Part shown: in pieces, positions 16,437 through 33,237 of the stretch
Position numbering within the stretch: the first letter of the stretch is position 1
Layout: every line of letters begins with the position of its first letter
NCBI GenBank assembly: GCA_023703675.1
Contig: CP097974.1
Coordinates: 395,288-459,287 of the forward strand
DNA: 64,000 nucleotides
DNA from: SAR86 cluster bacterium
Lineage (GTDB): Bacteria > Pseudomonadota > Gammaproteobacteria > Magnimaribacterales > AG-339-G14
Reading direction: 5' to 3'
Position numbers and translations under genes: made by a program
The notes under the pieces: generated by a model
What the model saw: the letters and a program-made list of their open reading frames with translations, nothing else
The model's database searches: none
Told to the model about the DNA's origin: nothing

Positions 16437-16550
16437 ATGACAGATAGAAATGAGGATAAGAAATTTAACCTGAAGGGATTAATGATTTTATTGATTTCGG
16501 TGACAGTTTTTTTAGCTGTTATAAGCTACTTAATAGACTATTTTTTTTAA
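16437..16550 (+). CDS. 37 aa single-helix membrane protein, unknown
   Basis: A small frame not usually called by size filters. It encodes a charged N-terminus (MTDRNEDKKFNLKG) followed by one membrane helix of about 20 residues and ends YLIDYFF. Its TAA shares bases with the ATG of the next gene (TAATG), the same coupling used by clpS-clpA, which supports real translation. It may be a minor membrane peptide co-expressed with the SixA-like phosphatase. I do not recognise a family. Confidence 0.55.
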   Translation: MTDRNEDKKFNLKGLMILLISVTVFLAVISYLIDYFF

Positions 16551-17017
16551 TGCTCCTAACCTTAGTCAGGCATGCAAAATCTTCTTGGTCAGATCCTTCA
16601 TTAAATGACTTCGATAGACCCTTGAACGAAAGAGGCAATAGGGATGCACCAAAAATGGCTCAGTGGTTTTTTGAGAATATTCATGAGACTCCCGTTCTTT
16701 TTACGAGCCCAGCCAATAGAGCTTTAGCAACCGCAAAATATTTTGAAAAAGAATTTTCTCCGATTGAATTAAACATAGTCGATAATTTGTATCACGCAAA
16801 TTTACAAGATTACGAAAGTATAATTTTAGAAAATAATCATTTGAAACATATTGTTATTTTTGGACACAATCCAACAATTTCTTACGTTGCAGAAGAGATG
16901 CTTAAATTAAAGAGTATTTATTTAAAGACCTGTTCAATCTGTCAAATAGACTTAATTGATCCTGACGTTTTATCTGGGGAGTTAAATTTTATTAAAAGCC
17001 CGAAAGAGGTAATTTAG
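16550..17017 (+). CDS. sixA: SixA-like phosphohistidine phosphatase
   Basis: Histidine phosphatase superfamily protein of 155 aa. The catalytic RHAK (residues 7-10, LTLVRHAKSSW) contains the nucleophilic histidine; DFDRPLNERGNRDAP is the SixA-specific block, TSPANRAL carries the second conserved arginine and VIFGHNPTIS the second histidine. In E. coli SixA acts on phosphotransfer proteins; the true substrate here is unknown. Located 76 bp upstream of phoB and possibly unconnected with it. Confidence 0.85.
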   Translation: MLLTLVRHAKSSWSDPSLNDFDRPLNERGNRDAPKMAQWFFENIHETPVLFTSPANRALATAKYFEKEFSPIELNIVDNLYHANLQDYESIILENNHLKHIVIFGHNPTISYVAEEMLKLKSIYLKTCSICQIDLIDPDVLSGELNFIKSPKEVI

Positions 17018-17093
17018 GTTCTAAAACTTATAGAAAAATTTTAGAATAAACTGTTTTAAACAATCGGAAAGTATTTCTAGTAAAATTCTAATA

Positions 17094-17792
17094 ATGATTA
17101 AAGATCAAATACTATTAGTCGAAGACGAACCTGATTTACTTCAAACCCTTTCATTTAATTTTGAGAATGAGGGTTATAAAGTTTCAAAAGCAAGTAACGG
17201 TGAAAAGGCGCTGAAATTACTCGAGGAAAATAATTCCATTGGTTTAGTTGTTCTTGATTTAATGCTACCAGATATTAGTGGTTTAGATATTTGCAGACAT
17301 ATTAGATCTTCAGATAACTTAAAAGACATCCTAGTCATTATGGTGACTGCTAAGGGCGAGGAAGTAGACAGAGTGGTGGGTTTTGAAATAGGTGCTGACG
17401 ATTATGTCGTAAAACCTTACAGTGTTAGAGAGTTAATGCTTCGAGTCGGCGGTTTGCTTAAAAGATCTTCGAAGAAAAAAGACGAAAGCAATGATGAAGT
17501 TCAGATTTATGAAAATTTAAAAATAGATACCAGTAAGCACAAAGTTTCCATAGCCGATAAAAAAATATCTTTAACTTCAAAAGAATTTAAACTTCTCAAA
17601 CATCTTTTATTAAAAGCTGACAAAGTTCAGACAAGAGATAATCTTCTTGAAAAGGTTTGGGGTTATAACAACGACGTCACGACAAGAACAGTCGATACGC
17701 ATATCAAAAGATTGAGATCAAAAATTGGAAAATATGGAGATAGAATAGAAACAATTAGAGGAGAAGGGTATCTCTTCAATAAATCAGACTAA
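17094..17792 (+). CDS. phoB: phosphate regulon response regulator PhoB
   Basis: OmpR/PhoB-class transcription factor, 232 aa. The receiver domain has the acidic triad (VEDEPD near residue 9) and phospho-acceptor Asp55 in VVLDLMLPD; MVTAKGEE and DDYVVKPYSVREL give the conserved Thr and Lys. The C-terminal winged helix (residues 135-230) includes LTSKEFKLLKHLL and VWGYNN...RTVDTHIKRLRSKI, the DNA-recognition segment of PhoB. It directly abuts phoR. Pho-box-like repeats downstream (21668 onward) are probable binding sites. Confidence 0.9.
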   Translation: MIKDQILLVEDEPDLLQTLSFNFENEGYKVSKASNGEKALKLLEENNSIGLVVLDLMLPDISGLDICRHIRSSDNLKDILVIMVTAKGEEVDRVVGFEIGADDYVVKPYSVRELMLRVGGLLKRSSKKKDESNDEVQIYENLKIDTSKHKVSIADKKISLTSKEFKLLKHLLLKADKVQTRDNLLEKVWGYNNDVTTRTVDTHIKRLRSKIGKYGDRIETIRGEGYLFNKSD

Positions 17793-19145
17793 ATGAAATT
17801 AACCGTAAAAATAAGACTATTTTTAATCGTATTATTGGTTGTATGTCTAGTTACTTTGGTCGGATCTATAATTTATAGAGGAAATACTTTTCTAAGTGAA
17901 AACCTATTATTAGGATTTAGTTTATTATTTCTCACTTCAATTGTTACAACTTATTTCATTTATCAATACTTTAAAAGACTAGTAAATTCAGCTGCTCAGC
18001 TGATTGCAAAAAAAATTGTAGATGATCCTTCGGTTGCTTCTGAAGAAATTTTTGATGAGCTTATTAAGGAATCCAGTCAGGTTAAAAACGATCTAGCCTA
18101 TTTTACTAAACAAACTGAACAATTTAGTTCCGTGTTATCAAAAATGGGACAGGGAGTTATTTTGGTTGATAAAAACTATCGAGTTTTGTTTGCGAATAAA
18201 ACTATCAATTCAGAATTCTTTCCTGACTTAAATATCGGCGATAAGCTTTTTGAAAAAATCAGTTATCCTCAATTTAAAAAATTTATCGAAAAAGCCTGGA
18301 ATAAAAAAGACTTAGTTAGAGAGATTTCCGGCCCTATATCAGTTAAGACTGTTTATCTGGTGAGTGCTAAAAAAGACGACTTTAGGGATGAAATGTTGAT
18401 TGTTTTTAGCGACATATCTAAATCTAAAAATCTTGAAAAAATGAGAGAAGATTTTATTGGCAATGTCTCTCATGAATTGAGAACACCAATAAGTGTTATC
18501 AAAGCTAATGCTGAAACTTTGATTACAAATAAATTAATTAAAGATGATGAAAATGCTAAATCATTTACAGAAGCAATATCTTCTCAATCAGAACGTATGA
18601 CAGCCATAGTTAATGATTTGCTTAAAATTTCAAGTATGGAAGCAGGGGAATATCCGATCTCAATTGAGTCTATAGATCCATTTTCAATTGCCAAAAGTTT
18701 AATTAAAGAATTCAAACCCGGTTTAGAAGAGAAAAAATTGGTTATTCAAAATAATTTGAATAAACAAACTAGGGTAATGGCTGACGGAGCAGCTTTGAAA
18801 ATTATTCTGACAAATTTCCTAAGCAATGCCATCAAGCACTCACCTAAAAAAGCTTTAATAAATCTGGAAGAATCTTCCTCTTCTAAAGGTTTTATAAAAA
18901 TATCCGTATCAGATCAAGGAAAAGGCGTGCCAAAAAAATATAAAGAAAGAGTTTTTGAAAGATTTTACAGAATAGACAAAGGTCGATCGACAAAACTAGG
19001 CGGTACAGGTTTAGGCCTCTCCATCAGCAAAAATTTAGCTTTGATGATGGGCTACTCGGTTGGAGTCGAGTCGAATGCGCCTAAAGGAGCAACTTTCTTT
19101 ATTGATATAAAACTCGATGAAGCAAAATCCTTTCAAGCTGCTTGA
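17793..19145 (+). CDS. phoR: phosphate-sensor histidine kinase PhoR
   Basis: Membrane histidine kinase paired with PhoB. 450 aa: two N-terminal helices (about residues 7-24 and 35-54) with almost no periplasmic loop, a linker, a PAS domain (about 105-205), HisKA with His227 in GNVSHELRTP, and an HATPase domain with N (TNFLSNAIKHSP), DQGKGVP and LGGTGLGLSI boxes. This lack of a sensory periplasmic domain is characteristic of PhoR, which senses through the Pst transporter and PhoU. No pst or phoU gene is in the window. Its 3' end overlaps the convergent ppx by 13 bp. Confidence 0.88.
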   Translation: MKLTVKIRLFLIVLLVVCLVTLVGSIIYRGNTFLSENLLLGFSLLFLTSIVTTYFIYQYFKRLVNSAAQLIAKKIVDDPSVASEEIFDELIKESSQVKNDLAYFTKQTEQFSSVLSKMGQGVILVDKNYRVLFANKTINSEFFPDLNIGDKLFEKISYPQFKKFIEKAWNKKDLVREISGPISVKTVYLVSAKKDDFRDEMLIVFSDISKSKNLEKMREDFIGNVSHELRTPISVIKANAETLITNKLIKDDENAKSFTEAISSQSERMTAIVNDLLKISSMEAGEYPISIESIDPFSIAKSLIKEFKPGLEEKKLVIQNNLNKQTRVMADGAALKIILTNFLSNAIKHSPKKALINLEESSSSKGFIKISVSDQGKGVPKKYKERVFERFYRIDKGRSTKLGGTGLGLSISKNLALMMGYSVGVESNAPKGATFFIDIKLDEAKSFQAA

Positions 19146-20023
19146 ATATTTTTATTTCCCTGCAATTCTTTTTCCATTACTCCATCAACAATATTCCAAG
19201 AACTATCAAATAGGTAAGAGTTAGGAAAAAATTCCATGATCTCTGCAAAAATAGCAATAGCGTATTCAAGAATGTCAGCTCTATCCTCGGGTAGAGAATA
19301 AAATGACACTTTTTCTTCAAAATTCTTGTTTTCCAGTTCTTTTTTTAAAGCTCTCAATTCATCTAGGGAAGATTTCCTATCTTGTTTATTGATAATCTCA
19401 TTGATAAGTCTGGCATTACCTCCTACACCAATTATATTTTTTATATTTTTAGACGGAATTTTAGTGAGCCACTCTTTTAAATTATCCCAATGCTTGGGCG
19501 AGTCTTTTTTTTCTAAAATTCTAACCGCCCCAAGAGGAAAAGATTTGGCAAGATTTTTTCCACTGCCTTGATAAAAAATCTCAGTACTGCCACCGCCGAT
19601 ATCTACAACTACCGTTTCTTCTTTTTTAAAACTTTTGTAATTAAAAAAATTTAACAGCTGCGCCTCTTCGTTTCCGGATAATATTTTAATTTCTATATCA
19701 GTTTTTTTTGTTATTTTTTTACAAATTTTATGTCCATTAGAAACCGTTCTCATAGCGGAGGTAGCTACTCCAGATATTATTTTTATATCTTTTTTATCAG
19801 CTTTGTCTTTGAGTTTAATTATGCTTTCTAATAACTTCTGCTCAGTTTCGGAAGAAATTTTCTTGAATTTGAAGGCATCGGTGCCTAGCCTAACTGAGAT
19901 TCTTTTAAAAGTATCCAATTCAGCAAAAACTTTTCTTTTTTTTGTTGCTATACGGTATTGACGATATTTAATCGCGTTTGAACCAATATCAATACAAGCT
20001 AGGCGCTGATTTTTATTCTTCAT
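19133..20023 (-). CDS. ppx: Ppx/GppA-type exopolyphosphatase
   Basis: ASKHA-fold phosphatase that trims polyphosphate or hydrolyses pppGpp. 296 aa, corresponding to the two N-terminal actin-like domains only; the C-terminal HD-like half of 500 aa E. coli Ppx is absent, as in many short homologues. CIDIGSNAIKY (residues 10-20) is the first phosphate loop, VVDIGGGSTEIF (near residue 139) the second, and IGVGGNARLIN the third. Overlaps the end of PPK2 by 11 bp, forming a polyP-breakdown/synthesis or nucleotide-charging pair next to phoBR. Which of the two substrates it prefers cannot be read from the sequence. Confidence 0.88.
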   Translation of the reverse strand: MKNKNQRLACIDIGSNAIKYRQYRIATKKRKVFAELDTFKRISVRLGTDAFKFKKISSETEQKLLESIIKLKDKADKKDIKIISGVATSAMRTVSNGHKICKKITKKTDIEIKILSGNEEAQLLNFFNYKSFKKEETVVVDIGGGSTEIFYQGSGKNLAKSFPLGAVRILEKKDSPKHWDNLKEWLTKIPSKNIKNIIGVGGNARLINEIINKQDRKSSLDELRALKKELENKNFEEKVSFYSLPEDRADILEYAIAIFAEIMEFFPNSYLFDSSWNIVDGVMEKELQGNKNIQAA

Positions 20024-20846
20024 CTGCCAAAACTTTTAAAATCTTGTATTGCTGATAACTCAAGTTATTAAAAGGGACTTTATTTATAGTTAAAGAGTAA
20101 TCGTTAATATTCTCCGTCCAAATTTTTGGTTTTGGCAGGTCTTTATTAGGATAATCAAAGGTTCCCAAAATGTAACGTAAAGCATGAAGCACTGCTATCT
20201 TTTTATCATTAGCATTTAAAACTATCCAAGGCGCTTCAGGATGGGAGGTTTTCTTAAACATTTGCTCTTTGTAAAGAGTAAAAATATCCCATCTGTCTAA
20301 ACCTTTTAAGTCGTTTTCACTTATTTTCCAATACACCAATGGACTATTCTTACGTTTCTCTATTCTCATCTTCTGAGTTCCTTTTTCTATGGATAAATAA
20401 AACTTAAGTATTTTTGTGTCATTTTCCATAAATCTTTCTTCCCAAGGGATAACTTTTTTCATAAAAGATTTGTACTGTCGTTCTGTGCAATAGCCCATAG
20501 TTGCTTCTACTAAAGCCCTGGTATACCAAGATCTGTCAAAAAAAACTAACTCACCAGTCTCTGGCATTTGTTTTTCATATCTTTGAAACCAATTTTTAGA
20601 TTCATTTTCAGTAGGAATGCCTAGTTTAACAAGCCGGCAATGTTTGGGTATTAGATACTTAGACAAAACGGAAATACTCCCAGTCTTTCCAGCTGTGTCT
20701 CTTCCTTCAAAGACAACTGCTATCTTCTTTTTCTCTTGTATGATCCAATCCTGGAGTTTGACAAGCTCAATTAAAAGCTTTCTCTTCTCTTTTTCATAAA
20801 GCTTAGAATCAATTCTTCTGTAGTTTGGTATATCAAATTCAATCAT
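20013..20846 (-). CDS. ppk2: polyphosphate kinase 2 family protein
   Basis: PPK2 enzymes transfer phosphate between polyphosphate and nucleotides. I chose the ATG at 20846 (277 aa), where the typical homology begins; the frame extends to a TTG at 20912. Walker A is GRDTAGKTG (residues about 49-57), followed by lid/Walker B elements FFDRSWYTRALVE and the KFYLSIEKGTQ segment. Overlaps ppx by 11 bp. Together they could interconvert polyP, nucleotides and phosphate, matching the phosphate theme of the neighbourhood. The class (I-III) and direction of the reaction cannot be told by eye. Confidence 0.88.
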   Translation of the reverse strand: MIEFDIPNYRRIDSKLYEKEKRKLLIELVKLQDWIIQEKKKIAVVFEGRDTAGKTGSISVLSKYLIPKHCRLVKLGIPTENESKNWFQRYEKQMPETGELVFFDRSWYTRALVEATMGYCTERQYKSFMKKVIPWEERFMENDTKILKFYLSIEKGTQKMRIEKRKNSPLVYWKISENDLKGLDRWDIFTLYKEQMFKKTSHPEAPWIVLNANDKKIAVLHALRYILGTFDYPNKDLPKPKIWTENINDYSLTINKVPFNNLSYQQYKILKVLADEE

Positions 20847-20950
20847 ATTTTTTTGGCGAAAATCTATTCTAGCTAAGTTTTTATGGAAGATTAAATTATT
20901 TACTGTAAACAATTTTATTTTCTCTTCTCACAAATTAATAAGCTATTCTT

Positions 20951-21160
20951 AATGTTTATGGCCAAATAAATATGGCTGCTAATGACCGTAATGGCAATGG
21001 TGATTATTTTATCAATGCACCTAGATAAGGAGTAAAAGGAATTTTGGGTTTTAACGGATTGACTGAAATTTACTAAGTTCAATAAGAATTAAATTCTACC
21101 GATGGTTCTGTATGAGATGAAGTTAAAAATTCCAACGGTGTTGTAACGGACTAAGTTTGA
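20951..21160 (+). pseudogene. decayed outer-membrane porin fragment
   Basis: The longest gene-poor stretch (20913-21220) holds a relic in one frame. Reading from 20951 gives NVYGQINMAANDRNGNGDY, then an APR-stop-GVKG block, then GFNGLTEIY-stop-VQ-stop-ELNSTDGSV-stop-DEV. This matches the N-terminal part of general Gram-negative porins (YGQINVA..., SRxGVKG, NGLKAIYQVEYELN) with in-frame TAA/TGA codons instead of frameshifts. No upstream signal peptide or downstream barrel remains, and a strong terminator stands just after it. I infer a deleted and decaying porin; given phoBR nearby it may once have been a phosphate-regulated porin. Family call by motif memory only. Confidence 0.6.
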
Positions 21161-21174
21161 AAAGATCTTATATA

Positions 21175-21205
21175 TATAAAAGGGCTAAAACTTTGCCCTT
21201 TTATA
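21175..21205. terminator. bidirectional rho-independent terminator
   Basis: A perfect 11-bp stem (TATAAAAGGGC at 21175-21185 and GCCCTTTTATA at 21195-21205) with a 9-nt loop. T-runs flank both sides, so it can end the minus-strand gene stopping at 21221 and the decayed porin on the plus strand. Confidence 0.8.
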
Positions 21206-21220
21206 ACTTACTCATATCTA

Positions 21221-21646
21221 TTAATTAAATGCCAAGAATTTATTTCGTTTAATTTCGTTACAATGATTAGAAAAAAGATCTGCGAGATCATTTTGCTTTT
21301 CCTCTATTAGATAGTTAACTTGCAAATCACAAGTCAAAGAACTGTCTATTAATCCAATATTTGAATGTTGAAGATAATCGCTATATAGACCAAAAATCAC
21401 AACATCATGATACGTTTTCGATAAATCATTTTCTACAAATATTCTACCCATGTCAGCAGATATATAGCAGCCTACTGATTGTTTTGGACAAAAGTCTTTA
21501 ACTAGATTTAAATCATATTCAATCTCTATATATTTTGAGTCTAAATTTAAATGGTTTTGAGCACTTTCGAAAATTACTTTATTAGCCATGACAGTTGTAC
21601 TAGCTAAAATAATTGATAAAAAAATAATACTTTTAAAGTATTTCAT
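21221..21646 (-). CDS. small secreted protein with four cysteines, unknown
   Basis: 141 aa from the ATG at 21646, which has GGGAG about 9 nt upstream; the longer frame to 21697 begins inside the Pho-box array and is not needed. Residues 1-20 form a Sec signal with probable cleavage after VMA. The mature part has four cysteines (in DFCPK, VGCYI, LTCDL and NHCNE), enough for two disulfides in the periplasm. No family recognised. A four-copy Pho-box-like repeat lies directly upstream, so it may be phosphate-controlled, although the repeat sits so close to the start that it could also serve the opposite side. A terminator follows 16 bp after the stop. Confidence 0.75.
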   Translation of the reverse strand: MKYFKSIIFLSIILASTTVMANKVIFESAQNHLNLDSKYIEIEYDLNLVKDFCPKQSVGCYISADMGRIFVENDLSKTYHDVVIFGLYSDYLQHSNIGLIDSSLTCDLQVNYLIEEKQNDLADLFSNHCNEIKRNKFLAFN

Positions 21647-21667
21647 AACAATTCTCCCTCTTTTAAA

Positions 21668-21707
21668 TGTAACATAAATGTAACATTTATGTAACATTTA
21701 CGTCAAA
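21668..21707. promoter_or_regulatory. Pho-box array, four half-sites at 11-bp period
   Basis: TGTAACA begins at 21668, 21679 and 21690, and a weaker CGTCAAA at 21701, each exactly 11 bp apart. PhoB binds direct repeats of a TGTCAT-like 7-mer with 11-bp spacing. TGTWACA is nearly its own reverse complement, so the orientation is ambiguous between the secreted protein (minus) and the lipoprotein (plus). Confidence 0.75.
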
Positions 21708-21830
21708 TTAGATCTTTTTAGTAAAAGTTTTTAACCGTAACTAAATGTCTCATATTTCAAAACAAAAATTTTTTTTAAATAATTTTTTTTAGACTTTTTT
21801 TCGTAATAATTTTCATTATCTTCAAAAAGA

Positions 21831-21874
21831 CGTAACGGTTTCGTAATATTTCTGTAACTATCCCTTTGTAAGAT
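21831..21874 (+). promoter_or_regulatory. Pho box plus -10 for the lipoprotein/TonB-receptor operon
   Basis: Half-sites CGTAACG (21831), CGTAATA (21842) and TGTAACT (21853) repeat at exactly 11 bp. A -10-like TAAGAT follows at 21869-21874, ten bases after the last half-site, the geometry of PhoB-activated promoters in which the box replaces the -35. An AGAGGA ribosome site and the ATG at 21905 follow. Confidence 0.75.
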
Positions 21875-21904
21875 CTATTTTTTATTAGTTAAAGAGGAAA
21901 TCTT

Positions 21905-24900
21905 ATGAACCCAAAATCAATTAAATACTTATTGTCAGTTCTTTCAATCTTCGTTTTAGTCTCTTGTGGTGGTTCCGGTGATACCAATATTGCTTCGCCA
22001 GGTGAACTAGGACAACTAACTGCCCCAAGTGGTAATGATAATTTTGCAGCTACAACTAGCACCTTATTAACAGGAACGTGTCCTACTTCCCCGTTTATTG
22101 CTGATGCTGCAACTCTTGGTGGAAACACATTATGTGCAATCACGGGACCAATTACTTCAGATCTTACTTTGACAACTGATGTAATGTATACGTTGTCTGG
22201 TAAAGTTGATGTCGGAAATGATATGGGCGGAGATGGTACAAAAGCTGGAGGAGTTTCAGCAACATTAACAATTCCAGCCGGTGTAACGCTTGCTCAAAAA
22301 ACAACTGATGATTACCTTGTTGTTCAAAGAGGTTCGAAAATTATTGCTAATGGAACAAGATCTGCACCTATCAGATTTACTGCAGCTTCTGCTATTGATG
22401 GATCTTTAACTAATCCGGAAACTGCAAATAGTCTTTGGGGAGGAGTAGTAATTTTAGGAAAAGCACCAATTAACAAGTGTGCTGCCGCTGATATAGGCTC
22501 TGCTGCTTGTGAAAGAGTGGTTGAGGGTTCGACTACTGCTATCATGGGTGGAAATACTCCAGCTGATAACTCTGGTGTTTTAAACTTTGTAAGAGTTGAA
22601 TATGCAGGTAAAGAAATATTTAAAGACAACGAATTAAATGGTATTACTTTTGGTGGTGTTGGTTCTGGTACCTTAGTAGACTACATTCAAGTCCATAACA
22701 ACAAAGATGACTGTGTAGAGTTTTTTGGTGGAACTGTAAATGTCAAACATTTAGTTTGCACTAATGCAGGTGATGATAATCTTGATTTTGATTGGGGTTA
22801 TCAAGGAAAAATTCAATTTGTTGTTATTAAACAAAAAGTTGGCGCAGGTGATCACATTGTCGAATCAGATAACACAAACGCTGATGCGTCAGTAGGCTAC
22901 CTTACAGAGCCTAGAACACAACCAATGGTTGCTAATTTTACCTTTATTGGTGGGACTGACGAACCATTTAAAATTAGAGAAGGTGTATCTGGAATTTATA
23001 TCAATGGTATTGTTGCAAACCAACAAGCACAAAAGCTCATAGATGGTGCCAATTCAGAAACTGTGCAAGATGGGGCACTAACAGATAAAATTGCTTTTCA
23101 TTCCGTATTTTTTGATTCAGCTCTAACAGGACAAACTGCAGCGGTTAATACTAACTTAGATAGCACACTATTAAATTATGATGACACAGTAACTGTTGCA
23201 GATTTTGCAACATCACTTAATTCAAGAAAAACTAATTTAACCGTTGGAACCAATACTTTGGTGGACACATATTTCTTGGGTACTGCAGAGTCTGCTGTTC
23301 CTAGCGCTTTTTCTGTAGGATCAAAGAACGCTATGTGTGAAATTGGAACTCATGATAAAGCAAACGGTGCTCAACCAAAATCAGGATTGTGTAGTGTAGG
23401 TAAAAACACTGCTGATGCAGGAGAAACTGCTGACTATACTTATACAGTCAATGGATTCTTCAATGCTACAGATTATATTGGTGCATTTTCACCTGGGTCT
23501 GATGCAGAAAATAACTGGGCTGCAGGTTGGACAATCGGTTTATTTACCGATCCTGCATGTCCAGCTGGAACTCTTGAATCAGAAATTCTCTTAGGTAGAA
23601 AAGTCTGCGACTTAAAAGGAGTTATAAAAGATGATCTAACTCTAGTTGCAGGAAACTATTATAAGCTTGATGGTAAAGTTGAAGTCGGTGTTGATGCAGG
23701 AGCTGATCCCTTAAACCCTGCTGCAAATGCTGATACAGCTATACTAACTATTAATCCTGGCGTTACAATTTTTGGTTTATCAGGTAATGACTATTTAGTT
23801 ATCAACAGAGGATCTGATATTAATGCTGTTGGAACAAGATCAGCTCCAATTGTGATGACTGGAAAACAAGAGATTCTTGGTCAAGTAGATGTTGACCGAA
23901 CACGAGGACTTTGGGGTGGATTAGTCATTCTTGGTCAAGCACCTATCAATAAGTGTACATACACAGGAACAGTAAAAGCTGTCCCTTGTGAAAAAGCCGT
24001 TGAGGGAACAGTTGGAAATGTAATGGGTGGTGAAGTTCCTGGTGACAGCAGTGGAGCACTCAAATATTTAAGAGTTCAGTATGCAGGATATGAGGTATTT
24101 TCAGGTAATGAGCTAAATGGAATTACTTTTGGTGGTGTTGGAAACGGTACTTCGGTTCAATATGTCCAAGTGCATAACAATGTTGACGATTGCGTTGAGT
24201 TCTTTGGTGGAACAGTCGATGTGAAACATTTGATATGTACTGGAGCAGGTGATGATAACTTGGACATTGATTGGGGTTATCAAGGAAGACTTCAATACGT
24301 AATAGTTCAACAGGCCAACGATAAAGGCGATCATATTGTAGAATCAGACAACGTTAGTACCACTGCAGTAGGCTACCTAACAGAGCCTAGATCAAACCCC
24401 ATTGTTTCTAACTTTACTTTCATAAGTAGAGGCCATGACGAGATATTCAAGTTAAAAGAGGGTGTATCAGGTCAATATTACAATGGAGTTGCTGCAGTCC
24501 TTAACGCAGCTTCTGGCTTAACAAAGGGTTGTATTGAAACAACATACGCGGAAACTATTCAAGATGGAGCTAGCACTCCTAAGTTCTCAATGAATTCCGT
24601 TGCATTTGATTGTCCTACTTCAGGTAGTGCTGGAAGCAGCACTATGGTCACAGTAGATTCGGAGACTTCAGGAAGTGTAACAGTAGCAGATGTAGAAGCG
24701 ATCGTTAAGGCAGGAACAAACAATCTCTATGCAGCTAGTTCTGGTGGAGGTTCATATGTAAATACACTTAGTGGAGTTGTTAATGGTTCTGCAGAGGCTG
24801 CAGCTACTCCGACATCAACTTTACCAGACAATGCCGATGGATTTTTTGACACTCCTACATATATAGGTGCAGTTAAAGATTCTACTGATGATTGGTACAA

Positions 24901-24937
24901 AGTATGGACATTACCTGGATCAATAAAACTTAACTAA
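21905..24937 (+). CDS. large surface lipoprotein with two homologous domains
   Basis: 1010 aa exported lipoprotein: signal with lipobox LVSC (Cys about residue 21) and a GGSGDT linker. Two long repeats follow, roughly residues 55-540 and 550-1005, sharing blocks such as ELNGITFGGVG, YVQVHNN/YIQVHNN, DDCVEFFGGTV and GDHIVESDN, so the gene arose by internal duplication. The glycine-rich, beta-strand-like repeats suggest a beta-helix, by inference. Such proteins commonly stand beside TonB receptors in marine bacteria; I know no proven function. Start supported by AGAGGA upstream and by the Pho-box promoter at 21831. A TonB receptor follows 30 bp later with its own GGAG, probably same transcript. 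Candidate role: capture of a phosphorus-containing ligand at the cell surface. Confidence 0.8.
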   Translation: MNPKSIKYLLSVLSIFVLVSCGGSGDTNIASPGELGQLTAPSGNDNFAATTSTLLTGTCPTSPFIADAATLGGNTLCAITGPITSDLTLTTDVMYTLSGKVDVGNDMGGDGTKAGGVSATLTIPAGVTLAQKTTDDYLVVQRGSKIIANGTRSAPIRFTAASAIDGSLTNPETANSLWGGVVILGKAPINKCAAADIGSAACERVVEGSTTAIMGGNTPADNSGVLNFVRVEYAGKEIFKDNELNGITFGGVGSGTLVDYIQVHNNKDDCVEFFGGTVNVKHLVCTNAGDDNLDFDWGYQGKIQFVVIKQKVGAGDHIVESDNTNADASVGYLTEPRTQPMVANFTFIGGTDEPFKIREGVSGIYINGIVANQQAQKLIDGANSETVQDGALTDKIAFHSVFFDSALTGQTAAVNTNLDSTLLNYDDTVTVADFATSLNSRKTNLTVGTNTLVDTYFLGTAESAVPSAFSVGSKNAMCEIGTHDKANGAQPKSGLCSVGKNTADAGETADYTYTVNGFFNATDYIGAFSPGSDAENNWAAGWTIGLFTDPACPAGTLESEILLGRKVCDLKGVIKDDLTLVAGNYYKLDGKVEVGVDAGADPLNPAANADTAILTINPGVTIFGLSGNDYLVINRGSDINAVGTRSAPIVMTGKQEILGQVDVDRTRGLWGGLVILGQAPINKCTYTGTVKAVPCEKAVEGTVGNVMGGEVPGDSSGALKYLRVQYAGYEVFSGNELNGITFGGVGNGTSVQYVQVHNNVDDCVEFFGGTVDVKHLICTGAGDDNLDIDWGYQGRLQYVIVQQANDKGDHIVESDNVSTTAVGYLTEPRSNPIVSNFTFISRGHDEIFKLKEGVSGQYYNGVAAVLNAASGLTKGCIETTYAETIQDGASTPKFSMNSVAFDCPTSGSAGSSTMVTVDSETSGSVTVADVEAIVKAGTNNLYAASSGGGSYVNTLSGVVNGSAEAAATPTSTLPDNADGFFDTPTYIGAVKDSTDDWYKVWTLPGSIKLN

Positions 24938-24967
24938 CACCTTTTTAAAACCTATTTTGGAGTCAAA

Positions 24968-27598
24968 ATGAAATCTACAAAAAAAATAAACAAAAGCATG
25001 GGTTTTTTAAAGTTTGCTTTACCCTTCATAATAGTTCTTCCATTATTTATGAATGCTCAGGAAACTGAACAAGCTCAGGATACTGAAGAATTAGTTGTAA
25101 GTGGATCTTTTATACCAGATGCAAAAAGGAATACATCTGAGATTTCTGCAATATTAGATTCGTCAGATATCGAAAGAACTGGTGATGACAATATTGCTAT
25201 CGCCCTTACAAGACTTGCGGGTCTTAGTCTAGTGCGAGGTAAATACGTATATGTAAGAGGTTTAGGTGATAGATATTCATCAGCTTCACTAAACGGTCTT
25301 ACTCTTCCAAGCCCAGAACCTCTCAAAAGAGTTGTACCACTTGATCTTTTTCCAACAAGCATCATTGAATCGTCTGTAGTACAAAAAACCTATTCAGCTG
25401 ACATGCCTGGTGAGTTTGGCGGAGGCATGGTTGAGATAAAAACAAAGACTGTGCCTTTAGATAGAATCTTTGAATTTTCAGCTTCAACAAGCTTAAACTC
25501 CGCTACTTCGTTAAAAGATGATGGGTTGATGTACGAAGGCGGAGAGGATAGTTTTGGGTACGATGATGGGATCAGATCAATTCCAAGTAGTGTTCAGGCC
25601 GCTATCAATAGCAACCTTAAACTTGATAGATCTAACTTTAATACAACACAATTGGCTAACTTTGGTCGAGAGTTTGAAAATTCAAAGCTATGGGTCATAC
25701 AATCAGGAGAAGTTCCTCTAGATGAATCTTATAGTTTAACTTATGGAGATAGTCTTGACGGTTTAAGAATTGATCAAATCATTAATATTCCAAGTGCAAC
25801 AATGGGATTTATGGTTACAGGAGGTTACAAAAATTCTTGGAATACACAAGAAGGACTTAGACAAACCGGTGATTTACAAAATCAGAGTGGAACTGTCAAT
25901 GTAATAGTTCAAAATGACAAAACTTTTAGAAGCACAACGAATGACATTACAGCATATGCAATGGCTGTTCTTGGGGTTGAAACGGATTTATCTGAATTAA
26001 AATACACCGGATTATATATTCATAAAGGATCAAAAGAAGCTCGTATCTTGCAAGGGTATGATTCAAGTGATTCGGCTAATGTTCGAGAAGATTTTCTAGA
26101 ATTTTATGAAAGAGAATTAACAAATCATCAGTTAAATTTTAATAAGACTTTTGTAAATGGCTGGAACTTAAATGTAGGTTTGAGTGATGGAGATGCAGAG
26201 AGAGATTCTCCATATGAAAGAGTTGCTTTCTATGAAGATGGAAATAATGACGGAGTTTACTTATACGATGTTAATACAGGTAGGAACCAAACCCAGTTTA
26301 GTATGGTCGAAGACCAAACTACAAATGTTATTATAGATTTAGAGATACCCTTTGGTTCTTCAACATTTTTAAGAGCTGGAGTTGAAAGTCTTGAAAATGA
26401 CAGATCGGCTGAAGTTAGAAGTTATAGATTTCTGGATGCTGGCGGTTCCATACCTCGAGATGGTCTAGATAATAGAATAGATTATATTTTTGCTGATCAA
26501 AATTTTGATCCTAATAGATTGATGGTAATTGAGAATACGGCAAGTTCATCGCCAGCTGGGTACTTAGGATTATTGGAAGTTGATTCAGCATATATTAGCG
26601 TTGAATCTGAAATTGGAGATAATTTTGAAATTACTGCCGGAATTAGGCAAGAAGATGGCCTTCAGCAAGTTAATACATTTGATTTATTTACAGGCATTGA
26701 CTCTACTATTGATAAATCAATAGAAGAAGATTATACGCTACCTTCAGCGACACTAACTTATCTTCCTGAATTTGATGAAAACCTTCAATTTAGATTGGGT
26801 CTTTCTCAGACAATTGCTAGGCCAACCTTCAGAGAGCTTTCTCCGACACTATTTATAGATGTTGATACTGACAGAGTAATAGCTGGTTCACTTTATTTGC
26901 AAAATAGTGAGATTGACAATATTGATTTAAGAGCTGAATACTATTTTGGTTTAAATCAATTTTTAACAGCTGGAATTTTTTATAAGGATATTCTTAATCC
27001 TATCGAAGAAACTGTTAATGAGTCAGGTGATTTAATTATTACTTCTTACCAAAACGTTCCTTCGGCTGAAATCACTGGTTTTGAAATTGAATATGAGCAA
27101 ATATTTGAGGCGATTAGGGATTCTAGTAACGACTTAATCGTTAAGTTCAATTATACGGATACTGACTCTGAAGTAATTGTGAATCCTGGAGATACTTATA
27201 TAAATAATCTTGGTACTTCAGTAAATGCTCAAAATCTTCTAGCGAATGGAAGAGATACCAGATTACAGGGTCAATCAGATACAATTGCAAACTTTCAAAT
27301 TGGTTTAGATAATTTACAAGATCAATCTGAAGCCACCCTAATCTTTAACTACGTTAGTGATAGAGTAAGAGCTAGAGGTATTGATGTTTTACCAGATATT
27401 ATTGAAGAACCTCCGTTATTGGTTGATTTTACATATTCAAGAGTTTTATCTTACTCCAATTACGATTTGAAATTGTCGCTTGAATTAAGAAATTTACTTG
27501 ACGAGGAGTACTATGCTTCTATGAGAAATATTGCAATATATGATCAATATGATCTTGGTCAATCAGCTTCATTAGGATTTAAAGTCTCCTTTAAATAA
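24968..27598 (+). CDS. TonB-dependent outer-membrane receptor (partner of the lipoprotein)
   Basis: 876 aa. Signal peptide to about MNA (residue 30), TonB-box-like EELVVSG near residue 40, then a plug domain with VYVRGLGDRYSSASLNG and FGGGMVEIKTKT, and a 22-strand-type barrel with TARPTFRELSP late in the sequence. It ends SLGFKVSFK, i.e. one residue beyond the usual terminal phenylalanine. Encoded 30 bp after the lipoprotein and followed by a strong terminator at 27665. The substrate is not evident; shared Pho-box control suggests a phosphorus source. Confidence 0.92.
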   Translation: MKSTKKINKSMGFLKFALPFIIVLPLFMNAQETEQAQDTEELVVSGSFIPDAKRNTSEISAILDSSDIERTGDDNIAIALTRLAGLSLVRGKYVYVRGLGDRYSSASLNGLTLPSPEPLKRVVPLDLFPTSIIESSVVQKTYSADMPGEFGGGMVEIKTKTVPLDRIFEFSASTSLNSATSLKDDGLMYEGGEDSFGYDDGIRSIPSSVQAAINSNLKLDRSNFNTTQLANFGREFENSKLWVIQSGEVPLDESYSLTYGDSLDGLRIDQIINIPSATMGFMVTGGYKNSWNTQEGLRQTGDLQNQSGTVNVIVQNDKTFRSTTNDITAYAMAVLGVETDLSELKYTGLYIHKGSKEARILQGYDSSDSANVREDFLEFYERELTNHQLNFNKTFVNGWNLNVGLSDGDAERDSPYERVAFYEDGNNDGVYLYDVNTGRNQTQFSMVEDQTTNVIIDLEIPFGSSTFLRAGVESLENDRSAEVRSYRFLDAGGSIPRDGLDNRIDYIFADQNFDPNRLMVIENTASSSPAGYLGLLEVDSAYISVESEIGDNFEITAGIRQEDGLQQVNTFDLFTGIDSTIDKSIEEDYTLPSATLTYLPEFDENLQFRLGLSQTIARPTFRELSPTLFIDVDTDRVIAGSLYLQNSEIDNIDLRAEYYFGLNQFLTAGIFYKDILNPIEETVNESGDLIITSYQNVPSAEITGFEIEYEQIFEAIRDSSNDLIVKFNYTDTDSEVIVNPGDTYINNLGTSVNAQNLLANGRDTRLQGQSDTIANFQIGLDNLQDQSEATLIFNYVSDRVRARGIDVLPDIIEEPPLLVDFTYSRVLSYSNYDLKLSLELRNLLDEEYYASMRNIAIYDQYDLGQSASLGFKVSFK

Positions 27599-27664
27599 GA
27601 GGTTTATTTCTATGAATCGAAGTTAAGTTTTTGTTTTTTCTCTGTTTATAATAAAAACACTTCA

Positions 27665-27692
27665 AAAAGGCCATATTTAAATATGGCCTTTT
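27665..27692 (+). terminator. rho-independent terminator after the TonB receptor
   Basis: Perfect 28-bp palindrome AAAAGGCCATATTT / AAATATGGCCTTTT, then TTCT, 66 bp after the receptor stop. The remaining 180 bp up to the aquaporin gene contain no recognisable gene. Confidence 0.85.
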
Positions 27693-27875
27693 CTAATATG
27701 AGTATTAAATTAATTTAATTACTGTTAAAGATAAAGAGAGCTACTTAACGAAATGAATTTAAATAAAACACAAGAAGTAGTTTTCTTAATATTGATGTAA
27801 AAATATAAATTAAAAACAGGGAAATTGTATGAGCTTTTATATTAATTTAAAGAAAAAAGTTTGATTTAAGAATTA

Positions 27876-28520
27876 ATGAAAATAAAAAAATACATTGCTG
27901 AATTTTTAGGAACCTTTTTTTTAGTGGCTACAGTCATTGGTTCCGGGATCATGGGTGATAATTTATCTTCTGGTAATGTGGCAGTGGCTTTATTAGGTAA
28001 TACGATTGCAACCGGAGCAATTCTTTATGTCATCATTAAATCTTTTGAAGATTTATCAGGAGCTCACTTTAATCCAATTGTCTCAATAGTCTTTTATTTT
28101 TTAAAAGAGATCAACTTAAAAGATTTACTCTTCTATTTAATTATTCAATTCATTGCAGGATTTTTCGCAGTAATATTTATCCATTTCATATTTGAACTTA
28201 GTTTGCTTCAAATTTCATCCAAACCCAGGATGGGAATCAGTATGCTTTTAAGTGAAATAATTGCATCATTGGGATTAATTTTAACTATCTTAATGGTTAG
28301 AAAAAATAATAAGTCTAATGTAGCTATTTCAGTGGCTTTATTTATTACAGCGGGTTACTGGTTTACATCGTCTACCTCATTCGCAAATCCAGCAGTAACT
28401 CTAGCTAGGACATTTACGGATACTTTTACTGGAATTTCACCAGAGTCGATTATTTATTTCTTTTCAGGCCAATTAATTGGTCTGTTCATTGCTTTGTATA
28501 TTTATAAATTTTTAAGATGA
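27876..28520 (+). CDS. MIP-family channel (AqpS-like aquaglyceroporin)
   Basis: 214 aa, six helices. The two half-helix motifs are HFNPIVS (NPI in place of NPA, near residue 66) and FANPAVT (near residue 170), with the AEFLGTFFLVATVIGSG N-terminal helix. It overlaps arsC by 4 bp (ATGA). From established knowledge, aquaporins encoded with arsC (AqpS) export arsenite formed from arsenate. That fits this context, because arsenate enters through phosphate transporters such as the Pit encoded at 33296. A general water/glycerol role cannot be excluded. Confidence 0.85.
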   Translation: MKIKKYIAEFLGTFFLVATVIGSGIMGDNLSSGNVAVALLGNTIATGAILYVIIKSFEDLSGAHFNPIVSIVFYFLKEINLKDLLFYLIIQFIAGFFAVIFIHFIFELSLLQISSKPRMGISMLLSEIIASLGLILTILMVRKNNKSNVAISVALFITAGYWFTSSTSFANPAVTLARTFTDTFTGISPESIIYFFSGQLIGLFIALYIYKFLR

Positions 28521-28936
28521 GAGAATCGAAGAAAATATTATTTCTCTGCACTGGAAATTCTTGTAGATCGCAAATGGCTGAAGGTTTTGCAAAAAAATTT
28601 ACTACTTTTCAGGCTTATTCAGCTGGCACTAGAAAATCTAATTTAAATTCATATGCAATCAAAGTAATGTCAGAAGTCAAAATTGATATATCTGATCAAT
28701 TCTCTAAAACCATAGACGAATTGGAAGACAAAGATTTTGATTATGTTTTTACTTTATGTTCAGATGCTGAAGAAAACTGTCCAGTCTTATTCAAAGGGAA
28801 GACCATACACAAAGGTTTTGAAGATCCTCCTATGCTCTCAGAAAATATAAATGACGATGAAAAAATATTAAATATTTACAGAAGGGTAAGGGATGAAATT
28901 CTTGATTTCATTCTAAATATCAATCATGACATTTAA
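28517..28936 (+). CDS. arsC: arsenate reductase, low-molecular-weight phosphatase type
   Basis: 139 aa of the LMW protein-tyrosine-phosphatase fold. The P-loop is CTGNSCRSQ (residues 11-19) with the CX5R signature, and two further cysteines sit in LCSDAEENCP (near residues 80-90), the redox pair of thioredoxin-coupled ArsC. Converts arsenate to arsenite, which can leave by the overlapping channel gene. No arsR or arsB/acr3 is nearby, so the channel seems to be the exit route. Alternative: a tyrosine phosphatase, but the extra cysteines favour ArsC. Confidence 0.88.
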   Translation: MRESKKILFLCTGNSCRSQMAEGFAKKFTTFQAYSAGTRKSNLNSYAIKVMSEVKIDISDQFSKTIDELEDKDFDYVFTLCSDAEENCPVLFKGKTIHKGFEDPPMLSENINDDEKILNIYRRVRDEILDFILNINHDI

Positions 28937-28950
28937 ATTTAGTCATTCTG

Positions 28951-29042
28951 GGACAATAGTTTCACAACAATTTTATCGTGTATTATTTTTCAATTTAGAG
29001 AAATAAAATATGGAATCTTTTTTTAAACTGCTTTCCAGCTAG
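28951..29042 (+). repeat. diverged copy of the pit promoter and start (relic)
   Basis: About 70 bp resembles the region before and into pit (33238-33305): shared blocks AGTTTC, AACAAT, ATTATTTTT, AATTTAGAGA and ATATGGAA align in order. The copied ATG at 29010 reads MESFFKLLSS then stop, against METLFLDPF in pit, so only promoter and first codons remain. Half-sites GACAATA (28952) and CACAACA (28963) keep the 11-bp period. Confidence 0.6.
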
Positions 29043-29066
29043 AATGTTCTCATTAAGTTTTTTATT

Positions 29067-29097
29067 TGTAACATTTCTGTAACATTTTTTGTATACA
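29067..29097 (+). promoter_or_regulatory. Pho box and -10 for the TonB receptor/phytase genes
   Basis: TGTAACA starts at 29067 and again at 29078, exactly 11 bp apart, with TATACA at 29092-29097 as a plausible -10. A GAGGGA ribosome site (about 29115) and the ATG at 29126 follow. Confidence 0.78.
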
Positions 29098-29125
29098 TTA
29101 ACTCTAAGTTTATTGAGGGACTCCT

Positions 29126-31678
29126 ATGAAAAAAATATATTTATTTCTTTTAATTTTTGCAAACCCTTTTGTATTTTCTCAAGAAGACTCAGAAAATATT
29201 GAGGAACTATTTGTAGTTGGAACAAAAGCTAGCATTATCTCTGCTATAGAAAAGCAAAGGGAATCCGATCAGATTATATCTGTTATAGATTCAGATGCAT
29301 TAGGTGAATTTCCAGATACTACCGCTGCAGAGGCTTTAAGAAGAATCTCAGGTATTTCAGTTGAAAACGACCAAGGTGAGGGCCGTTATGTTACTGTTAG
29401 AGGTCTTTCTGGAGACTTAAACAATATTTCTGTCAATGGCGCAACTATTCCAGCACCAGAAGGTGGAAGAAAAGTGATGCTCGACGGTCTACCAACAGAA
29501 CTTCTAGATTCTATTGAAGTATACAAATCTTTAACTCCTGATCAAGATCTTGATTCTATTGGTGGAAGAGTTGAGTTTAATACGAAAAGCGCTCTAGACT
29601 TGGATGGCACGTATTTCAAACTAAAAGCAAATACCCAATACAACGATCAAACATATAATAATGATAATCCTAAAATCTCCCTCACCTACGGAGATCTGAT
29701 TAGTGAAAATGTGGGACATATAATTGGTCTTACTTATTCTAAAAAACAAGTAATTACTTACAACAATGAAACCGGTTTTCCTGCTTGGGCTGCCACTGGT
29801 GGAAACTATGCAATAGATGATGATTTTGAAAGCAGATATTATGATTTAACCAGAGAAAGATTAGGTATTACTTACGACATTGACTATAGGATCAATGATG
29901 AATCATCTATGTATGCAAATATTTTATGGAATGAATACGTGGATGATGAGCTCAGATATAAAGATGAGTACGGGAAGTTAAAAAACAGTAATGTTACTGC
30001 TGTAGGAAGCACTATTACAGAAATAAGAAGAGATGCAGAAGTAAGAGTTAGGGAGGAAGTTAGAACAATCAGAACATTCATTCTAGGTGGTAACACAATA
30101 GTCAACGGTTGGGATGCAGAGTTTGCATTTTCGAATTCTTTTGCTGAAGAAGATGATACAGACAATGTTGATGCAAAGTTTAGAAGCAGTACCTTTAAGG
30201 CAGCTGCTTGTGGAGGACCTTGTGGATCTTTTGATTATTCAAATCCTCAAATACCACGTATGACTCTAGCTACTGCAATTACTACTGGGGCTGGAAATAT
30301 TTATGATCCAGCAAGCATGGGAGTAGATGAGATTGAAGAGGAAGATTCTGTAATTGATGACACAATATCATCATTTCAGGCTGATTTTACAAAAGAAGGT
30401 TTTACGGTTTCTGATATTCCAACGACTTTAAAATTTGGCTTCAAATATAGCACTCGAGAAAAAGAAAAAACTGTTTCAGGTTTCGCTTCGGATCCTGGTA
30501 CTTCTCAATCAAATTACAATCCAATCACTACACCAGTTAACTGGCCTTGGCCAAATGTATTTGGTCCCATGGCAGATCCTGCAACAATCTTCGCTCTTCA
30601 GGGCACATTTGGTTCATTAACAAATAACTATGCAAAACCTAACTTTGACAAAGATTTTGTTTCTGAAGAAGATATCACAGCACTTTATTTAATGGGCACA
30701 ATGGAATTTGAAAATGCAGTTGTGATTGCTGGTCTAAGGGCAGAGGACACTTCATTTGATACACTTGGATACAATAAAGAAGATGACTCTACTATTAGAG
30801 CATCTAAAAATTACACATTCGTATCACCAAGTGTAAACGTAAAATACTTCGTCAATGACGACACAATAGTTCGTGGTGCAATTTTTCGATCTTTATCTAG
30901 ACCTGGATTTGGTGAAACTGCTCCCGTAGCAGACTTTAAATCGGATGGAACTGCAGCGGATGGAAGTACAATTTATAAGGGAGAAATGGGTAATCCTGAC
31001 TTAGAACCATATGAATCTACAAATCTAGATCTTAGTTTTGAAAGATATTATGAAAATGGCGCAGTATCAATAGGTTATTTTAGGAAAGATGTTAAAAATG
31101 CTATTTATCCTCAAGTTACAGCAGGTGTTGTTGGAGGGATTAACTTTAGCGAATTAGAAACATACATTAACAGTGAAAAGTCAACAGTTGATGGAATTGA
31201 ATTCAATTTTTTCAGTGAATTTGTGAATCTTCCTGAACCATTTGATGGTTTATTCATCTCATTAAATTTAACTGAAGTTGACGCTGAAAGTGATGTTCCT
31301 AGCGCTGCCGGTGTGTTTACCGTTCCATTTAGAAAACTCGCTGATAGCACAAGAAATTTATCAATTGGGTACGACAAAGGAAAAGTTGACATGAGACTCT
31401 CGTTAGCTCAAAGAAGCGATTACTTAGATTATCTTGCTGATGATGATATAGAAACTACTGTAGATAATCTAAATTATGACAATATCAGATTTACTGACGA
31501 TCATTCGCAAATAGACTTTACAGCCAAATATTATTTGGATGATAATTTAACTCTTAAATTAGACTTAATTAATATAAATGACGAACCAGAATTCTATTAT
31601 TGGGGCAATCCTTCAAGACTTTCTCAATATGATGAATATGGTAGAAGTGCGACAATTGGTTTCACTTATAAGTACTAA
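29126..31678 (+). CDS. TonB-dependent receptor, phytase-associated
   Basis: 850 aa outer-membrane receptor. Signal peptide to about FSQ (residue 19), TonB-box-like EELFVVG, plug with EFPDTTAAEALRRISG, VTVRGLSGDLNNISVNG and PDQDLDSIGGRVEFNT, the signature of the Xanthomonas/Caulobacter-type TonB receptor subfamily; barrel to a terminal IGFTYKY. Its neighbour is a beta-propeller phytase, so the likely cargo is phytate or its partly dephosphorylated products (inference). Preceded by a two-copy Pho box. The stop is followed within 20 bp by a terminator hairpin that overlaps the phytase signal sequence. Confidence 0.92.
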   Translation: MKKIYLFLLIFANPFVFSQEDSENIEELFVVGTKASIISAIEKQRESDQIISVIDSDALGEFPDTTAAEALRRISGISVENDQGEGRYVTVRGLSGDLNNISVNGATIPAPEGGRKVMLDGLPTELLDSIEVYKSLTPDQDLDSIGGRVEFNTKSALDLDGTYFKLKANTQYNDQTYNNDNPKISLTYGDLISENVGHIIGLTYSKKQVITYNNETGFPAWAATGGNYAIDDDFESRYYDLTRERLGITYDIDYRINDESSMYANILWNEYVDDELRYKDEYGKLKNSNVTAVGSTITEIRRDAEVRVREEVRTIRTFILGGNTIVNGWDAEFAFSNSFAEEDDTDNVDAKFRSSTFKAAACGGPCGSFDYSNPQIPRMTLATAITTGAGNIYDPASMGVDEIEEEDSVIDDTISSFQADFTKEGFTVSDIPTTLKFGFKYSTREKEKTVSGFASDPGTSQSNYNPITTPVNWPWPNVFGPMADPATIFALQGTFGSLTNNYAKPNFDKDFVSEEDITALYLMGTMEFENAVVIAGLRAEDTSFDTLGYNKEDDSTIRASKNYTFVSPSVNVKYFVNDDTIVRGAIFRSLSRPGFGETAPVADFKSDGTAADGSTIYKGEMGNPDLEPYESTNLDLSFERYYENGAVSIGYFRKDVKNAIYPQVTAGVVGGINFSELETYINSEKSTVDGIEFNFFSEFVNLPEPFDGLFISLNLTEVDAESDVPSAAGVFTVPFRKLADSTRNLSIGYDKGKVDMRLSLAQRSDYLDYLADDDIETTVDNLNYDNIRFTDDHSQIDFTAKYYLDDNLTLKLDLININDEPEFYYWGNPSRLSQYDEYGRSATIGFTYKY

Positions 31679-32759
31679 AAATTATTTTCCCCCAAAAAAG
31701 GCAAGTTTCATACTTGCCTTTTTCTTGTCTACTTTTGCTTTTGCAGATTATGTTGAGGTTGAGGCAATTTACGAGACACCGCCAGTTATAACTGAGGGAG
31801 ATGCAGCTGATGATCCTGCAATATGGGTAAATAAAAATAATCCTTCAAATTCAATTATCTTTGGAACTGATAAAAAAAGCGGAATTTATAGTTACAATCT
31901 TCAAGGACAAGAGTTGAGTTATACAAATCTTGGCAGGATTAATAATGTTGATACAAGAAGTATGAATCTTGGAGACGATGAGAATGTCTCTGATTTTACT
32001 TTTCTTTTTGGGTCTAATAGAACATTAGGATCGGTAGATTTATGGGTATTTGAAGATAATAAAACAAGACAAAAACTTAAAAATAATTCATGGGAAGTCC
32101 CATCAAAACCATCATTTAGAGGTAAATCAAATATTATCGTATATGGTATATGCGCTGGAATCGATCCAAAGTATGGATTAGTTGCTTTTTTAACAGAAGA
32201 CACTGGTCCGCGAGTTGAAGTATGGAACCTGACTGATAATGGCCTCGATCTTATAACAACTTTTAATAATGGTGGAGAATCGGAAGGGTGTGTTTATGAT
32301 GATTTCAATAGAACTCTTTTTATATCAGAAGAAGAAGTAAGAGGGGTTTTAAAAGCTTATAGACTCGATGACAGTTTTGATTTCTCTGAGCCTTATATTG
32401 TCGATTCTAGAGAAGGTCAAATTGGTGGCGACCCAGAGGGAGTATCTTTATATAAAACATCAAACAATTCTGGTTATTTAATTTTGTCCTCTCAAGGCGA
32501 TAGTAAATTTAATTTGTATGATAGGAATTATCCATATGATTATATAACCAGTTTTAGAATAGGTTCTTCAAAAAGTATAGACAATGTTACTGATACTGAC
32601 GGTATAGAAACAATCAACTTTAAACTGAGTGATGAGTATCCAGAAGGTATTATGATTGCACAAGATGGTCTTAATAAAGATGGGTATAAAACTAAAAGGC
32701 AAAACTTTAAAATTGTCTCTTTCAAAGATGTACTTGATGCTTTAACTGTTCCTAGATAA
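31638..32759 (+). CDS. beta-propeller phytase (3-phytase)
   Basis: Secreted or periplasmic enzyme that removes phosphates from phytate. Family blocks include GDAADDPAIWVN, IIFGTDKKSGIYSYNLQG, NNVDTR, ESEGCVYDD and FISEEEVRG; the acidic residues are the expected Ca2+ ligands. No ATG lies between the receptor stop (31678) and the mature part, so translation must start inside the receptor gene: I chose the ATG at 31638 (373 aa, 36-residue signal ending STFAFA), with the frame open back to 31578 and GTG 31647/TTG 31653 as alternatives. The signal-peptide codons contain a terminator-like hairpin (31695-31723). Expression seems to need readthrough and translational coupling with the receptor. Confidence 0.88.
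   Translation: MVEVRQLVSLISTKNYFPPKKASFILAFFLSTFAFADYVEVEAIYETPPVITEGDAADDPAIWVNKNNPSNSIIFGTDKKSGIYSYNLQGQELSYTNLGRINNVDTRSMNLGDDENVSDFTFLFGSNRTLGSVDLWVFEDNKTRQKLKNNSWEVPSKPSFRGKSNIIVYGICAGIDPKYGLVAFLTEDTGPRVEVWNLTDNGLDLITTFNNGGESEGCVYDDFNRTLFISEEEVRGVLKAYRLDDSFDFSEPYIVDSREGQIGGDPEGVSLYKTSNNSGYLILSSQGDSKFNLYDRNYPYDYITSFRIGSSKSIDNVTDTDGIETINFKLSDEYPEGIMIAQDGLNKDGYKTKRQNFKIVSFKDVLDALTVPR
31695..31723 (+). terminator. terminator hairpin embedded in the phytase signal-peptide codons
   Basis: Stem AAAAAGGCAAGT (31695-31706), loop TTCAT, stem ACTTGCCTTTTT (31712-31723): 12 perfect pairs with a run of T. It lies 17 bp after the TonB receptor stop and inside the phytase frame, so it may attenuate phytase expression relative to the receptor. 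Confidence 0.75.
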
Positions 32760-32953
32760 TATCTAGGGTTTATATCAAATAATTCAATCACTCATATGCA
32801 TTAATTCTTACCTTTGCCTTTTATTGTTCTGGATAAATCTATTTCTTGTCAGCCTAAGGACTAAACTGAAATAGGAATCGAATTAAATTTTTAAATATTT
32901 AAATTTAAAGTTTTGAAAAAAATGCTAGTTTTTTTTATAAAATTCATCTATTG

Positions 32954-32982
32954 TGTCAATTATGTGACATAAAAGTGTCAAT
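32954..32982. promoter_or_regulatory. Pho-box-like triple repeat
   Basis: TGTCAAT (32954), TGACATA (32965) and TGTCAAT (32976) repeat with an 11-bp period and are closer to the E. coli TGTCAT consensus than other boxes here. A -10-like TAATAT at about 32993 overlaps the ATG at 32998, so transcription might start after it. The preceding 32760-32950 stretch shows no gene; only a short CCTAGATA/TATCTAGG hairpin at 32751-32767. Confidence 0.6.
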
Positions 32983-32997
32983 AATGTTACAAATAAT

Positions 32998-33123
32998 ATG
33001 AATACTAAAACCGTTCTTAAAGATCAAAGATTAATACCTGCAAAGTCTCAAGTGCAAGAGATGGTTATATTTGGTTTTATTTCTTTATGGATAGTTTTAG
33101 TGGCAGTTCTTTATTTTTCATAA
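32998..33123 (+). CDS. 41 aa single-helix membrane protein, unknown
   Basis: Frame with a basic N-terminal half (MNTKTVLKDQRLIPAK) and a C-terminal membrane helix of about 18 residues ending AVLYFS. It has no clear ribosome site at 32998; if the Pho promoter starts after 33000, the internal GTG (33052) or ATG (33061) would yield only the helix. Its position between a Pho box and pit suggests phosphate-starvation expression. No family recognised. Confidence 0.45.
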   Translation: MNTKTVLKDQRLIPAKSQVQEMVIFGFISLWIVLVAVLYFS

Positions 33124-33237
33124 ATATCTCTGAAAAAAAAACCTAAGTCTTTTTATTTATCCATAAATTGCAAGGATTTGAATCATTCACTATTTCATCT
33201 AAATTTTACTTTTATATCTAAAATTAAGTTTCATTAA

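Follow-up and report, generated by a model that had tools for sequence, protein, structure and literature searches.

An array of four 11-bp direct repeats between a small secreted-protein gene and a large lipoprotein gene of a SAR86 cluster bacterium is probably a multi-half-site operator through which the response regulator PhoB represses the promoter of the secreted-protein (four-Cys) gene. The array lies in the 64,000-nucleotide stretch of DNA analyzed here, referred to as the window. This reading draws on the existence and conservation of the repeats, their association with the four-Cys gene, a promoter signature in relatives, the lack of an activating geometry and the presence of a single OmpR-type regulator. 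We infer from these sequence features that PhoB binds the array, that its binding represses, and that phosphate is the signal. The length of the array is not new; the point of interest is its conserved, repression-like placement at the four-Cys gene. The elements concerned are:

17094–17792, plus strand: PhoB response regulator, the only Trans_reg_C protein in the genome
17793–19145, plus strand: PhoR-type sensor kinase
21221–21646, minus strand: four-Cys secreted-protein gene (141 aa), proposed PhoB-repressed target
21668–21711, no strand assigned: array of four 11-bp units, proposed PhoB operator, with half-sites beginning at 21668, 21679, 21690 and 21701; kept 5′ of the four-Cys gene at 52 of 53 loci
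21677–21706, minus strand: sigma70-like four-Cys promoter inside the array, with −35 TTGACG (21706–21701), an 18-nt spacer and −10 TACATT (21682–21677)
21831–21863, plus strand: second Pho box, proposed activating box of the lipoprotein gene, with units CGTAACG, CGTAATA and TGTAACT
21869–21874, plus strand: −10 TAAGAT of the proposed lipoprotein promoter, 16 nt past the start of the last half-site
21905–24937, plus strand: lipoprotein gene (1010 aa)
29067–29099, plus strand: two-unit Pho box 5′ of the second TonB receptor gene, with −10 TACATT at 29094–29099, an internal reference for activating geometry

Read on the plus strand from position 21668, the array is TGTAACATAAA TGTAACATTTA TGTAACATTTA CGTCAAATTAG. 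It contains three exact copies of TGTAACA (21668–21674, 21679–21685 and 21690–21696) and a degenerate fourth, CGTCAAA (21701–21707), all in strict 11-bp register. This is the arrangement described in the initial annotation, and the exact positions, the genome count and the register in relatives confirm it. The single half-site TGTWACA is not enriched in the window (9 occurrences versus 8.0 expected). The pair TGTWACA-N4-TGTWACA, by contrast, is found at only two places in the 1.19-Mb SAR86 genome: it occurs at three positions in the whole 1,194,046 bp, two of them overlapping within the array and the third at 29067–29084 in the window. The reversed control pattern is absent from the whole genome, and allowing two mismatches in the paired pattern adds two forward sites. 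Chance repeats are ruled out by this pair count and by conservation in relatives, which keep the 11-bp register. With 7-bp half-sites, 4-bp spacers, an 11-bp period and at least two units, and with a PhoB regulator encoded in its own genome, the array has the makeup of a Pho box. This supports the earlier view of a direct-repeat array of PhoB type with more units than the usual two.

Motif comparison at the same locus, the check put forward with the initial annotation, revealed that the array is kept in G018, G012 and G005, the three relatives with both flanking genes. Their arrays contain six units with one step of 9 bp, and the array of the window genome (G000) is a shortened copy, with exactly 20 bp missing compared to all three. 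The shortfall looks as if recombination between repeats had removed two units.

On the conservation evidence, the array belongs to the four-Cys gene and not to the lipoprotein gene. The four-Cys family, in which the four cysteines are invariant, is present in 53 of 203 SAR86 genomes (54 matches), and all 25 named loci with a four-Cys relative are from SAR86 cluster bacteria. The second match in G103 has no in-frame ATG and was excluded, leaving 53 usable upstream regions. At least two half-sites exactly 11 bp apart lie no more than 110 nt from the four-Cys ATG in 52 of these regions (2.7% of shuffles, n = 5,300) and at least three half-sites are found in 24 (0.04% of shuffles, n = 5,300), G103 being the sole region without an 11-bp-spaced pair. 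Among the 34 loci with long flanks, the 5′ neighbor of the four-Cys gene is divergent in 13 and co-directional in 21, and it is the lipoprotein gene in only four. Because the half-sites persist at nearly every locus while the neighbors are mostly other genes, we assign the array to the four-Cys gene. A longer, 158-aa four-Cys reading frame starting inside the array was considered and rejected, as G018 and G005 have no such start. At two loci, L038 (G027) and L115 (G195), the four-Cys ATG lies at the end of the last half-site, TGTCATATG; both genomes are without a PhoB match.

The geometry of the four-Cys arrays was compared with that of Pho boxes upstream of the second TonB receptor gene. A match was present in 115 of 202 genomes; 50 loci from these formed the benchmark, and L144 and L160 were excluded for lack of an ATG, leaving 48 usable regions. 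In E. coli phoA, the −10 TATAGT starts at an offset of 16 nt from the first base of the second TGTCA. Receptor loci with a forward half-site pair place a TANNNT at exactly this offset from the start of the second half-site in 16 of 18 cases. By contrast, a TANNNT at offset 16 occurs in none of the 37 four-Cys loci with a forward pair, and in none of the 53 four-Cys regions when any pair is counted on the gene strand. The four-Cys arrays, then, do not have the −10 at the phoA distance that marks a PhoB-activated promoter. The median distance from the end of the last paired half-site to the ATG is 13.5 nt at 52 four-Cys loci versus 43 nt at 23 receptor loci. The center base of exact TGTNACA half-sites also differs, with C36 G31 A25 T24 at four-Cys genes versus A25 C14 T4 at receptors, and the four-Cys mix indicates that half-site orientation is mixed there. 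In the window, 21 nt that include a Shine-Dalgarno-like stretch separate the array from the four-Cys ATG, and the array thus cannot serve as an ordinary activating box for this gene. Judged by sequence, the geometry argues against activation of the four-Cys gene by the array.

What the four-Cys arrays overlie in many relatives is a candidate sigma70 promoter. The region scanned contains seven sigma70-like sites versus 6.0 in shuffles, a count that is not significant alone, and the promoter call in the window is supported by the TTGAC-16/18-TANNNT signature in relatives. A TTGAC −35 is present in 34 of 53 four-Cys regions (shuffles, 13.5%) versus 3 of 48 receptor regions (shuffles, 9.9%); since the four-Cys loci are related by descent, this and the other four-Cys counts overstate independence. 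At 32 of the 34 TTGAC loci a TANNNT follows at a spacer of 16–18, where non-overlapping three-position windows give 0 to 14. A half-site pair begins 34–43 nt past the −35, about the expected start point, in 31 of the 34 (other ten-position windows, 4 to 17). Half-sites over the −35, −10 or start point, the arrangement of a PhoB-repressed promoter, are therefore found in relatives; the window has a weak promoter match, and its own array is without the downstream half-site pair present at those 31 loci. TTGAC is absent from 19 of the 53 loci, and seven f2 loci carry TTTACA-17-TATAAA. The −35 falls in the repeat register at 17 of the 34 TTGAC loci, where array and promoter signature are therefore not independent, and lies outside the register at the other 17 (f3/g11, g15, g17, g18 and f4). 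A looser sigma70 score (at least 5/6 and at least 4/6) separates the two sets less well, with 44 of 53 four-Cys regions (shuffles, 38.7%) versus 25 of 48 receptor regions (shuffles, 31.2%).

In the mechanism that we favor, sigma70 RNA polymerase would use the TTGACA-like −35 and the −10 that lie within the array or adjoin it on the minus strand. Upon phosphate starvation, phosphorylated PhoB would occupy the half-sites from about the −35 to the first transcribed bases, and this occlusion of the promoter would block four-Cys transcription. At the lipoprotein and TonB-receptor genes, which have boxes of their own in activating geometry, the same PhoB would switch transcription on. More tentatively, though quite possibly, these arrangements may reflect an order-wide geometry rule whereby a PhoB half-site activates with a −10 16 nt downstream and represses when it tiles a sigma70 promoter. 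Under such a rule the four-Cys family would be a conserved repressed target, off at low phosphate, with an operator whose length changes by repeat units between lineages. A rule that tells PhoB-activated from PhoB-repressed genes by sequence would make the regulon readable from genomes and checkable in ocean metatranscriptomes. Among marine bacteria SAR86 are abundant and carry few regulators; little seems to have been written on their phosphate response.

Activation is the role of most known Pho boxes, and PhoB might instead activate the four-Cys gene through a non-standard geometry in which the upstream half-sites form the box and the extra units raise affinity. In several families the four-Cys gene is part of the phosphate island or close to it, as would suit such a role, and f1/f3 arrays carry at least two units 5′ of possible −10 sequences. 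However, the gene-strand offset-16 TANNNT seen at 16 receptor loci is missing from all four-Cys arrays, and f3/g17 and most f4 loci have only one weak half-site 5′ of the −10. Moreover, a consensus-like −35 is not expected at PhoB-activated promoters. We consider activation unlikely, and repression by PhoB the better account of the array.

The initial annotation had the array acting in both directions on both flanking genes. That it activates the four-Cys and lipoprotein genes together is improbable. The half-site is indeed near-palindromic, and in G000, G018, G012 and G005 the lipoprotein side has a TTTAGT at offset 16, counted from the start of the last half-site. TTTAGT is a poor −10, however, and the lipoprotein gene owns a better, proximal box that was overlooked initially, with units beginning at 21831, 21842 and 21853 and its TAAGAT at the phoA distance. 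This −10 reads TAAGAT in G018 and G005 and TAAAGT in G012; the box is kept in G018 and G012 and is 11 bp, one unit's length, shorter in G005. Across the 53 four-Cys regions, offset 16 does not stand out for TANNNT on the opposite strand (5 of 53, and as many as 14 at other offsets). The array also tracks the four-Cys gene order-wide, whereas the lipoprotein is seldom its neighbor and the upstream neighbor is most often co-directional. A simple two-way promoter was accordingly rejected as the main reading, and the array as a distal lipoprotein promoter using TTTAGT was kept only as a weak possibility. The length of the lipoprotein box, as that of the array, is not fixed: it varies by whole units, from three in the window to 11 bp fewer in G005.

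The phoB gene is located about 4 kb from the array and encodes the only OmpR/PhoB-type DNA-binding regulator of the genome (Trans_reg_C, PF00486). Its top NCBIfam model is TIGR02154 (PhoB), at 235.5 bits versus a cut-off of 296.2. Thirty-three of 41 relatives have a PF00486 protein, exactly one each, and some of the eight without a match are probably gaps at contig ends. In G008, G023, G032 and G038 an assembly gap is the likely cause, as a contig end is close to the lipoprotein gene, itself often located near phoBR; G058, of the same genus as G038, has PhoB. No PhoB was found in G027 (97% complete) or, in a later search, in G195 (74%), despite their arrays. These two genomes and the PhoB score below the cut-off are what would speak for a regulator other than PhoB, a highly improbable reading given that 11-bp direct repeats are the OmpR/PhoB pattern, that one such protein is encoded, that the genome has no Crp-type HTH (for which reason a Crp-type site was also rejected) and that the same half-site in activating geometry precedes phosphate-island genes.

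The region from 16550 to 34546 of the window reads as a SAR86 phosphate-acquisition island. Its genes are, in order, SixA-like phosphatase, PhoB, PhoR, Ppx-like, PPK2, four-Cys, lipoprotein, TonB receptor, aquaporin-like, ArsC-like, second TonB receptor, phytase and PHO4-type transporter (PiT). The phosphatase, PhoB, PhoR, PPK2, both receptors, phytase and PHO4 were named from Pfam/NCBIfam matches and the other island genes by reading.

The closest known parallel to the four-Cys array is the autorepression of E. coli phoB, whose promoter is repressed, once PhoB becomes abundant, through a PhoB site that sits at the −10 and is read on the antisense strand (PMC6194859). In both, half-sites for PhoB cover the −10 region, some of them on the other strand, but the E. 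coli site is weak, has two half-sites and accompanies an activating box of phoB itself (PMC6194859). The SAR86 array is longer, is found at an unrelated secreted-protein gene and has no standard activating box. It shares 7-bp half-sites and 11-bp spacing with the E. coli phoA Pho box, whose offset of 16 recurs at the SAR86 TonB-receptor and lipoprotein boxes, but it is without that offset and overlies, in many relatives, a promoter with its own −35. The PhoP operators of Streptomyces pitH2 and glpQ1 likewise have at least four 11-nt direct-repeat units, although pitH2, glpQ1 and glpQ2 need PhoP for activation and the half-site sequence differs (PMC7866108). E. coli ugp resembles the SAR86 case in having more than one Pho box per promoter and differs in being induced by phosphate limitation (PMC4415409).

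The four-Cys protein has no Pfam or NCBIfam match. Its AlphaFold2 model (mean pLDDT 81.8) is closest to minimal metallopeptidases (4jix_B, Z 7.9), a weak similarity for which the best Foldseek E is 0.1, and the HExxH motif of minimal zincin metallopeptidases is absent from the window protein. Our guess from the model is that the product may be an inactive zincin-like secreted protein, perhaps protease-like. A terminator scan near the array gave none, nor did it match the inverted repeat AAAGGGC...GCCCTTT (21180–21210) 3′ of the four-Cys stop, which is terminator-like by eye. The lipoprotein, which also has no Pfam or NCBIfam match, and the first TonB receptor (window 21905–27598) stay adjacent in relatives. 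In G026, G032 and G028 (L045, L048 and L051) this pair directly adjoins homologues of the type II secretion-like genes of the window, hinting at a functional link.
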